64,000 bases of DNA from Candidatus Sericytochromatia bacterium S15B-MN24 CBMW_12 (GTDB taxonomy: Bacteria > Cyanobacteriota > Sericytochromatia > S15B-MN24 > UBA4093). The DNA is taken from contig DAZV01000057.1 of assembly GCA_002083825.1 (NCBI GenBank), positions 124,001-188,000 on the forward strand, in the 5' to 3' direction. The position numbers and the translations under genes were made by a program. Positions 5,768 through 7,689 of this stretch are shown here, piece after piece (the first letter of the stretch is position 1; every line of letters begins with the position of its first letter). The notes under the pieces were generated by a model. That model was not told the origin of the DNA. It did no database searches and saw only the letters and a list, made by a program, of their open reading frames with translations.

Positions 5768-6700
5768 CTATCCTGATTCTTCCAATATGCGGGAATTCTT
5801 GCTGACTAGCTCTTGGAGTTCCTGTTTCTGAGCATCAGGCAGGAAAGATGCCCCGATCAAATCGCAGGCTGGTCCGGTGAGCTTAACGAGTCCCTCAAGG
5901 ATTTTGGTTGACACCTGGGGCTTTAGATCGCATTTGGTGGCGAAGTACTGCCAGTCGGAAAGCGTGATCTTCTTGTCTTTTCCGTTCAGCTTTAGGGCGA
6001 GTTCTCGTTCCTTGAAATGTAGCCTGCTGCTGACAATGTCATACGCTGGCGAGAGAACGACGTCGCCGGTCGTAGTGACGAGCAGCGAGAGGTTCTTCCT
6101 GTGCAGGTCCTCGTTGCCGATCCACCACGAGAAGGCGACCAGCTTGAAGAGCTTGCTAAGCTGGATAATGGGTGCGGAGGCGTATTTTTTGATAATTTTG
6201 GCGCAGTGCTCAAAGGAGCCTTGGTATTTTTCTTTCGGAGGCAGCTCCGCTAGTTGGCAGAAATCCTCCATGCGGAACTTCTCGCCATTTTGACCGCGGT
6301 CGAAGCGTTTCGTTATGTAGGCAAGCGATCCATCGGAGAGTTCGATTAAGCCACTTGGCGGGATCTCGATCCCAGCTAGGCGAGCGATGCGCATAGCCAA
6401 GGCTTCGTTTTCCGGAAGGTTGGGATAGGTACTCACCTGAGGTTTGAGGATGTATTGGAGGCCGCTGCTGGCCACTTCTAGGCTCTTTTTATCGCTAGTG
6501 AGTCGCATTGATAGCTTCTGCTGGACGCCGGAGAGGCTTACAAAGCCCACCATAGGCCTGGCTTGCTCAACGAGCTTCGCGTGATCGATTGCGATGGTAG
6601 GTGGCTTGCTGATGCCAAATAGTTCTCTGAGGCATTTGGGATGGTAGTGGCTCCCTTTCTCTGGTAATTCGGCCAAGCAGATTCGGCAGACTTGGGTCAT
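5768..6700 (-). CDS. hipT: HipT-like Ser/Thr kinase toxin (HipA C-terminal fold, stand-alone)
   Basis: 310 residues. It has the HipA catalytic core but lacks the HipA N-terminal subdomain, which is encoded separately upstream, as in the tripartite HipBST systems. The N-terminus has a zinc-ribbon-like CxxC and HxxxC cluster (CRIC, HYHPKC). The Gly-rich loop is VSLSGVQ with Ser55 and Ser57, equivalent to the SxS autophosphorylation site of HipT. The catalytic loop is GNEDLHRKN and the metal-binding Asp is in SPAYDIVS. By homology it phosphorylates an aminoacyl-tRNA synthetase (TrpRS for E. coli HipT), stopping translation. The target here is unknown. Codon use and GC are lower than in the neighbours. 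It starts 14 bases after hipS. Confidence 0.88.
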   Translation of the reverse strand: MTQVCRICLAELPEKGSHYHPKCLRELFGISKPPTIAIDHAKLVEQARPMVGFVSLSGVQQKLSMRLTSDKKSLEVASSGLQYILKPQVSTYPNLPENEALAMRIARLAGIEIPPSGLIELSDGSLAYITKRFDRGQNGEKFRMEDFCQLAELPPKEKYQGSFEHCAKIIKKYASAPIIQLSKLFKLVAFSWWIGNEDLHRKNLSLLVTTTGDVVLSPAYDIVSSRLHFKERELALKLNGKDKKITLSDWQYFATKCDLKPQVSTKILEGLVKLTGPACDLIGASFLPDAQKQELQELVSKNSRILEESG

Positions 6701-6714
6701 CGTTGCTTTCCTCG

Positions 6715-7041
6715 CTAGGGCTCGACGGGAACGATTTCCACTGCCCCGGCGCAGTCACGACACAACGCGCAAAGTAATCCATAGGCGTCGTCTTTCGAGA
6801 GCTTTAAGTAGGAGGTCGAAATCTCGAGCAGCCAGCCCTCTGGCAGTAGGTTTTCGAAGAAGGGGTGTAATCCCTTGCTCTCATAGGGTTGATCTGTGAG
6901 GGGCAGGGTGAGGGAAATGGGTACAGCGTCGTGATCGGCGAGCCATGCGGGATCATAGGAGAAACGCGTTCGCTCGCCCGACTCCTCGAGGAATCCGACC
7001 TTTCGCCCGTCCAGTTGAACCCATGCCCGTCTAGATGCCAC
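6715..7041 (-). CDS. hipS: HipS-like antitoxin (detached HipA N-terminal subdomain)
   Basis: 108 residues matching the HipA N-terminal subdomain 1 (Couple_hipA): WVQLDGRKVGFL, ISLTLPL, HPFFENLLPEGW. In HipBST this small protein, not HipB, neutralises the kinase by inserting a Trp near the active site. Trp70 in LLPEGW sits where I recall the functional Trp of E. coli HipS. Its start overlaps the hipB stop by 11 bases and hipT follows 14 bases on, so the three genes form one operon in the order B-S-T. Confidence 0.88.
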   Translation of the reverse strand: MASRRAWVQLDGRKVGFLEESGERTRFSYDPAWLADHDAVPISLTLPLTDQPYESKGLHPFFENLLPEGWLLEISTSYLKLSKDDAYGLLCALCRDCAGAVEIVPVEP

Positions 7042-7321
7042 TGTCGCCTCCTTCGTCCCGCGGCGCGTCGACGATGTGAAGGGTCTTGCCGAATACCGTC
7101 AGGACGGACTCGACGGCGTCTAGGCGTACCGTTGATTTCCCCCCCTCTAGATCAGATATGAAGCGTCTTCCAACCCCAGCAAGGTCTGCGAGCTCCGCCT
7201 GCCCGAGTTGGTTCTTCGCCCGCAGTTCGCGGACTTGTCTGGCGAGTTCTTGGGCAACACGGGATTCTCGCTCTCGTTTGATGGGAGCGCGTGGTCGATT
7301 AGGTATCTTTCTGATGGCCAT
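7031..7321 (-). CDS. hipB: HipB-like XRE-family DNA-binding autorepressor
   Basis: 96 residues with a helix-turn-helix of the XRE/Cro type in the centre (LGQAELADLAGVGRRFISDL then EGGKSTVRLDAV). The N-terminus is basic. As first gene of a hipB-hipS-hipT operon it is expected to bind operators upstream and repress the operon. The five evenly spaced palindromes at 7371-7544 are the obvious candidate sites. The C-terminal tail (DAPRDEGG) is short and acidic. Confidence 0.88.
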   Translation of the reverse strand: MAIRKIPNRPRAPIKRERESRVAQELARQVRELRAKNQLGQAELADLAGVGRRFISDLEGGKSTVRLDAVESVLTVFGKTLHIVDAPRDEGGDSGI

Positions 7322-7370
7322 CCTCGATGCTCCTGAGCGGGACTATGACGGGTCCGGGGAAAGTCACGAT

Positions 7371-7544
7371 CCCGATCGGGTATCTTGGGCTGCTGACTTC
7401 TGGTTCGCGTTACCGATCGGGATTATTAATCTAAATTAGAGATTATCATGTTCCCGATCGGGAGTAAATAGATGAAAATAATAAGCTATTGATCCTGATC
7501 GGGAATGAGAAGTTGAATCAGTCTTCTATCGGATCCCGATCGGG
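7371..7544. promoter_or_regulatory. Array of five CCCGATCGGG operators in the hipB promoter region
   Basis: Five copies of a 10-bp palindrome start at 7371, 7412, 7453, 7494 and 7535, so each step is exactly 41 bases. The copies are CCCGATCGGG, ACCGATCGGG, CCCGATCGGG, CCTGATCGGG and CCCGATCGGG. The 31-base intervals are unrelated and AT-rich, so this is not a tandem duplication. A spacing of 41 bp is close to four helical turns, placing all sites on one face of the DNA. They lie 50 to 225 bases upstream of hipB. Binding by HipB is inference from position and symmetry. AT-rich hexamers such as GATAAT on the minus strand near 7441-7446 could be the -10 box. Confidence 0.85.
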
Positions 7545-7602
7545 CTCAATAGTTTGGAGTAGTTGGAGGCGGTGACCTCCCATTCAATGGTAACGCCCGT
7601 TA

Positions 7603-7644
7603 ACGGCTGAATGACTGATCTGCGGGCAGGCGGCATTCAGCCGT
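7603..7644. repeat. Inverted repeat beyond the hip operators
   Basis: An 11-bp perfect inverted repeat, ACGGCTGAATG at 7603-7613 and CATTCAGCCGT at 7634-7644, encloses 20 bases. A shorter hairpin GGAGG/CCTCC sits at 7565-7580. The 3' arm segment TTCAGCCGTGA recurs inside the 3' end of the glutathione peroxidase gene near 7711. It could be the gpx terminator or an insertion boundary. No T-run follows, so termination is uncertain. Confidence 0.45.
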
Positions 7645-7689
7645 GAAGCAGTCACGCCGACTGCGCTCCTCATCGGTTTCCCCCTGGGC

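Follow-up and report, generated by a model that had tools for sequence, protein, structure and literature searches.

In Legionella, hipBST promoters of nearly all species carry three evenly spaced operators separated by 53-bp gaps, and HipB binds each of the three in gel shifts, also on single-operator fragments, with stepwise shifts, unlike E. coli HipB, for which cooperativity has been reported (PMC10653801). In E. coli, HipB occupies its four operators in a cooperative manner and bends the DNA by 70 degrees (PMC3920265, PMC3376134). For the hipBST operon of E. coli O127, HipB alone is sufficient for repression, and repression is seen already when hipBT or hipBST is expressed at a very low level (PMC10627512). 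The Legionella operator motif is reported to be absent from the O127 operon (PMC10653801). In Caulobacter crescentus, a series of inverted repeats was noted in the hipBA1 and hipBA2 promoters (PMC7029023).

The locus described here lies in a 64,000-nucleotide stretch of a Candidatus Sericytochromatia contig, the whole of which we refer to as the window. Its three genes are as follows.

hipB, 7031..7321, minus strand: 96 aa, Xre/Cro-type helix-turn-helix protein and presumed repressor (Pfam HTH)
hipS, 6715..7041, minus strand: 108 aa, HipA N-terminal domain as a separate protein (Pfam Couple_hipA)
hipT, 5768..6700, minus strand: 310 aa, kinase without the N-terminal subdomain (Pfam HipA_C)

A helix-turn-helix protein, a separate HipA-N-like HipS and a HipT kinase without that subdomain make up the HipBST layout, and the gene identities given by an earlier, sequence-only reading of the window agree with both the Pfam domains and the matches to PDB relatives. 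The closest structures are Legionella HipB (8ezt) and Legionella HipT (8ezr), with E. coli O127 HipT and E. coli HipA ranking well behind the latter; the window HipT shares 40% identity with one from Legionella. By sequence comparison, the operon is hipB-hipS-hipT and is closest to Legionella HipBST. HipT keeps both kinase aspartates: its GNED and SPAYD align with the E. coli HipA motifs GATD and TPFYD, whose aspartates belong to the active site. HipS, which in E. coli O127 and the Legionella relatives neutralises HipT, has one match in its own genome. Additionally, HipT weakly matches the PADLOC candidate phage-defence model PDC-M03A (5e-7), and HipS matches PDC-M03B.

Upstream of hipB lies an array of CCCGATCGGG-type palindromes, listed here from the most distant site inwards together with a promoter candidate.

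O1, 7535..7544: perfect CCCGATCGGG, most distant from hipB
O2, 7494..7503: CCTGATCGGG, one mismatch
O3, 7453..7462: perfect CCCGATCGGG, immediately upstream of the -35 candidate
Promoter candidate, 7422..7449, minus strand: ATGATA-16-AATAAT, a consensus match between O3 and O4
O4, 7412..7421: ACCGATCGGG, one mismatch, predicted to lie over the transcription start
O5, 7371..7380: perfect CCCGATCGGG, within the predicted leader
O6, a weak and tentative sixth site, 7332..7341: CCTGAGCGGG on the plus strand and CCCGCTCAGG on the minus strand, 39 bp from O5

The palindromes starting at 7371, 7412, 7453, 7494 and 7535 are 41 bp apart in all four start-to-start intervals, which reproduces the positions and exact steps that the sequence-only reading had reported. 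Its five strong copies stand, while the weak sixth site at 7332 and the promoter candidate inside the array had been missed. Located right ahead of the hipB ATG, O6 is regarded as tentative because it has two mismatches to the core. An unbiased palindrome caller likewise returns six sites in the window, with spacings of 41, 41, 41, 41 and 39 bp. The region is a hip operator array in the sense that one palindrome recurs at least twice immediately ahead of hipB.

By itself, CCGATCGG is only a little commoner than expected in this window, which is rich in GC (7 matches versus 4.65). At up to one mismatch to the motif there are 13 sites per 64 kb, and the only pairs spaced 20 to 79 bp apart are the four 41-bp pairs of the array; the background estimate for a regular 41-bp run is about 1e-15. 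Across the genome, GATCGG pairs that follow each other at 41 bp line up as a run only at the hipBST array, and four further places with this spacing are isolated pairs. The CCCGATCGGG sequence is present in 27 genomic copies, with no 41-bp runs outside the array, and a reading of the motif as a genome-wide element was rejected. Elsewhere in the same genome, two perfect CCCGATCGGG copies are found at 34-bp spacing (L001 1501-1544; G000:C1:87187 and 87221). Between the array and the upstream peroxidase-like gene, an inverted repeat with a 20-nt loop (TTAACGGCTGAATG / CATTCAGCCGTGAA, window 7600-7647) may be a terminator, though it has no T run.

The sequence-only reading had staked its interpretation beforehand on the spacing being conserved in relatives, and this held when we surveyed 125 loci, collected by HipS, HipB and HipT searches together with plasmid matches and including the window and some duplicates. 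Families of palindromic 14-mers were called in the 460 bp before hipS, with neither motif nor spacing assumed, and a family was counted at p<=0.05 against 100 Markov shuffles per locus. With duplicates removed, significant families are present in 49 of 102 hip promoter regions versus 2 of 89 controls taken from within hipT, and evenly spaced arrays (at least two equal consecutive spacings) in 48 hip promoter regions versus 2 coding controls. About half of the sampled loci have no significant array by this caller, many of them being AT-rich, where the caller is weak; the same caller returns no significant family for many AT-rich fused-HipA loci from the window’s phylum. A 40-42 bp period is found in 28/33 evenly spaced arrays of split-HipS loci, from several phyla, and a 49-50 bp period in 11/14 of those of fused-HipA loci. 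Other groups have spacings of 30, 52, 60-62 or 71-72 bp.

Two loci of the window’s order have spacings of 41, 41, 41 and 42 bp (L038) and of 42, 41 and 52 bp (L036), and one of its class has 40 and 40 bp (L039; recovered with the motif, missed by the unbiased caller). Spacings are 41, 41 or 40, 40 in MAGs and plasmids of Bacteroidota, 71-72 followed by 61-62 in gammaproteobacterial MAGs, 60-61 in a group from the same phylum as a Myxococcales MAG, 72 and 71 in L. adelaidensis, and 41, 30 and 52 bp in L145. Two exceptions, L146 (77, 65, 70) and L113 (60, 36), have clear CCCGATCGGG-type operators and break the whole-turn rule. The HipS-bearing locus L156, with motif GGTCATATATGACC, has six sites alternating at 41, 30, 40, 30 and 41 bp, or about four and three helical turns. 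Position and spacing of the array are also kept in relatives whose palindromes have no GATC, for example CCCGAACGGG, TACCCNNNNGGGTA and TTCATNNNNATGAA.

Contigs of viral collections (L080, L083, L084, L086, L089-L091, L094) also carry hip loci, with a 40-42 bp period if split and 49-50 bp if fused. Since these contigs share the same operator periods, hip systems probably travel on mobile elements. Two CCGATCGG copies 41 bp apart are present in 18 viral contigs.

A HipB alignment of 119 loci, each set beside its own best palindrome, shows that the operator sequence changes along with the HipB recognition helix. Helices of the GVGxRF type accompany CCCG..CGGG or close variants, the GIGKTSVFDIE helix accompanies ACCGCTATAGCGGT, GVSVHTISDIE accompanies TTCAT..ATGAA, and the E. 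coli helix GIKQATISNFE accompanies TATCC-N8-GGATA. The phylum of locus L017 holds both the CCCG and the TTCAT class, each with its own helix. Because of this covariation, the palindromes of the window are very probably HipB operators, and the sequence-only proposal to that effect is the best reading on comparative evidence.

The promoter candidate is a moderate one, with 9/12 consensus matches and 0.3 expected in shuffles, and is the sole promoter-like site in the region. Its -10 stops 5 bp short of the centre of O4. A best sigma-70 match that finishes 4-9 bp ahead of an operator centre is seen in about 18/30 loci, among them E. coli K-12; by our estimate, a 41-bp period would be expected to give roughly 15%, and some of these loci are closely related. 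An operator would thus typically lie over the predicted transcription start, as judged from consensus matches. In 41-bp arrays the next upstream operator flanks the predicted -35, and with periods of 50, 61 and 71 bp it is placed farther upstream. A search for Bacteroidota-type promoters (TTTG/TAnnTTTG) gave no consistent position.

Taken together, we consider it highly likely that the palindromes are an autoregulatory operator array of the HipBST toxin-antitoxin operon, with HipB on each palindrome and the promoter enclosed. Array, spacing, conservation and HipB covariation are read from the sequence, and promoter and start site from consensus matches, while HipB binding, cooperativity, bending and co-repression are taken from published relatives. 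Given the published binding, repression, cooperativity and bending of HipB, cooperative autorepression by a phased array is the best reading. One HipB dimer would occupy each palindrome, by analogy with these relatives, the dimer on O4 covering the predicted transcription start and that on O3 lying beside the -35, and HipB enclosing the core promoter in this way would block RNA polymerase. At the remaining operators, about four helical turns apart, more HipB dimers would bind cooperatively on one DNA face, probably carrying HipT and HipS, so that repression would track how much HipB and HipB-toxin complex is available. If each of the five sites bent the DNA by 70 degrees and all bends, about four turns apart, lay in one plane, the DNA would come close to a full circle, a calculation borrowed from another system. 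Bridging of HipB complexes by HipS-HipT is a reasonable proposal, with which the O127 repression data are compatible without proving it.

A stronger form of this explanation is that adjacent HipB-HipT(-HipS) complexes touch on one DNA face and thereby fix the spacing, with in-phase bends summing to a rod, an arc or a loop, which is the idea of the sequence-only reading; such contacts at 41 bp are our own inference, and we consider this form nearly evenly balanced, leaning slightly towards no. The exact 41-bp spacing across five sites points to it, as does the clustering of spacings at 30, 40-42, 49-52, 60-62 and 71-72 bp. At the level of loci, phase coherence is R=0.79 near a period of 10.0-10.25 bp, a value that overstates independence because of common ancestry, and a class-level test was therefore added. 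Over 19 semi-independent values, exceptions and E. coli included, this gives R about 0.60 and p about 0.002, to be read as indicative only, as the classes share ancestry and were grouped after the data were seen. The same-face idea of the sequence-only reading predicts whole-turn differences of this kind across the family. Unequal spacings inside one array are mostly 10-11 bp apart (L036, L145, L156 and the gammaproteobacterial class), and the 39 versus 28 bp of E. coli K-12 fits the same step. By these comparisons, operator spacings across the hip family show a tendency to vary in steps of whole helical turns, with near-whole-turn values kept in relatives and L146, L113 and E. coli K-12 as exceptions. 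A spacing that is kept, or changed by about whole turns, suggests that the repressors, once bound, act together in a single aligned assembly. Fixing by contacts would also suit the 41 versus 50 bp of split and fused toxins, a link that may however be one of descent only, as well as the stronger repression with HipT or HipST in E. coli O127 (PMC10627512) and the HipA dimerisation reported within E. coli HipA-HipB-operator complexes. The 28 and 39 bp used by E. coli K-12, in contrast, argue against it.

Alternatively, 41 bp could simply be what a core promoter of about 29 bp and a single operator core of about 12 bp add up to, with HipB dimers acting independently and extra sites arising from duplication or serving to raise local occupancy. 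The promoter candidate does fit between O3 and O4, TTGACA-17-TTCGAT of L038 likewise sits between two operators, and Legionella HipB binds single-operator fragments (PMC10653801). We nevertheless find this account rather unlikely, as 41 bp is also kept at sites away from the promoter, and the 50-, 61- and 71-bp classes have spare room yet stay near whole turns. Recent tandem duplication is itself unlikely because the sequences between operators are mostly unrelated. It is highly improbable that the repeats have nothing to do with HipB and instead serve as a target of adenine methylation, belong to a replication or partition system, or form a series of RNA hairpins: the core contains GATC and CGATCG, and its regularity recalls iterons and partition sites, of which regular repeats are typical, but these readings were rejected because relatives lose GATC and keep position and spacing; moreover, the site varies together with HipB, and a loopless 10-bp palindrome makes a poor hairpin.

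For the autoregulatory array, a wider generalisation can be put forward tentatively. In Hip arrays of many phyla, the architecture of the toxin complex might set a whole-turn period, neighbours joining on one face as a curved filament that encloses the promoter. If this is true, about 41 bp would correspond to split HipS/HipT, 50 bp to fused HipA and 61-72 bp to other HipB classes, and the five- or six-site array of the window would be among the longest examples. Hip kinases are tied to antibiotic tolerance, and the reading of several operators by repressor and toxin should influence how frequently cells switch. Strictly phased arrays of three to six equal units offer a clean system for studying whether repression depends on contacts between neighbouring repressors that carry toxin, and since spacing seems to go with the architecture of the toxin, there is a prediction that can be checked by half-turn shifts of sites.

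With respect to novelty, the sequence-only reading knew of no earlier description of a hip operator array as regular as this one. Put in this way, the statement is not supported, as regular hip operators are already known from Legionella, with its three operators at 53-bp gaps (PMC10653801), and from the Caulobacter repeats (PMC7029023). In a literature search with most subscription papers outside its reach, we found no 41-bp hip array or array of five or six sites, no report of 41-bp hip spacing spread over phyla, and no hip spacing linked to helical turns or to split and fused toxins; a published description of Bacteroidota hipBST operator arrays was not found either. Evenly spaced hip operators are thus known, and the long 41-bp array and the family-wide phasing seem unreported.

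Compared with individual systems, E. coli O127 hipBST shares gene order, protein parts and repression by HipB, but its HipT is more distant in sequence from that of the window (PMC10627512, PMC6581861). Caulobacter crescentus differs in its fused HipA, and its repeat intervals are said to be consistent with the E. coli higher-order complex (PMC7029023). E. coli K-12 hipBA is alike in having four palindromic operators before hipB, the toxin as co-repressor and a -10 box that ends 8 bp before an operator centre, and differs in its fused HipA, its spacings of 28/39/28 and its motif, TATCC-N8-GGATA, a consensus that the array of the window, with its CCCGATCGGG core, does not follow. Bacteroidota hipBST loci (L018-L023, L099, L101, L115-L133) have separate HipS and HipT and the same 40-42 bp period, but use the TACCCNNNNGGGTA motif and usually three sites. 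Legionella pneumophila hipBST is also a tripartite operon, supplies the closest PDB HipB and HipT, and has several evenly spaced operators, one of them over the predicted promoter, as proposed for the window. Its three operators, however, are 18 nt long with an ACCGC-type motif and lie about 71 bp apart centre to centre, whereas the window carries CCCGATCGGG sites, five or six in number, with a 41-bp period.
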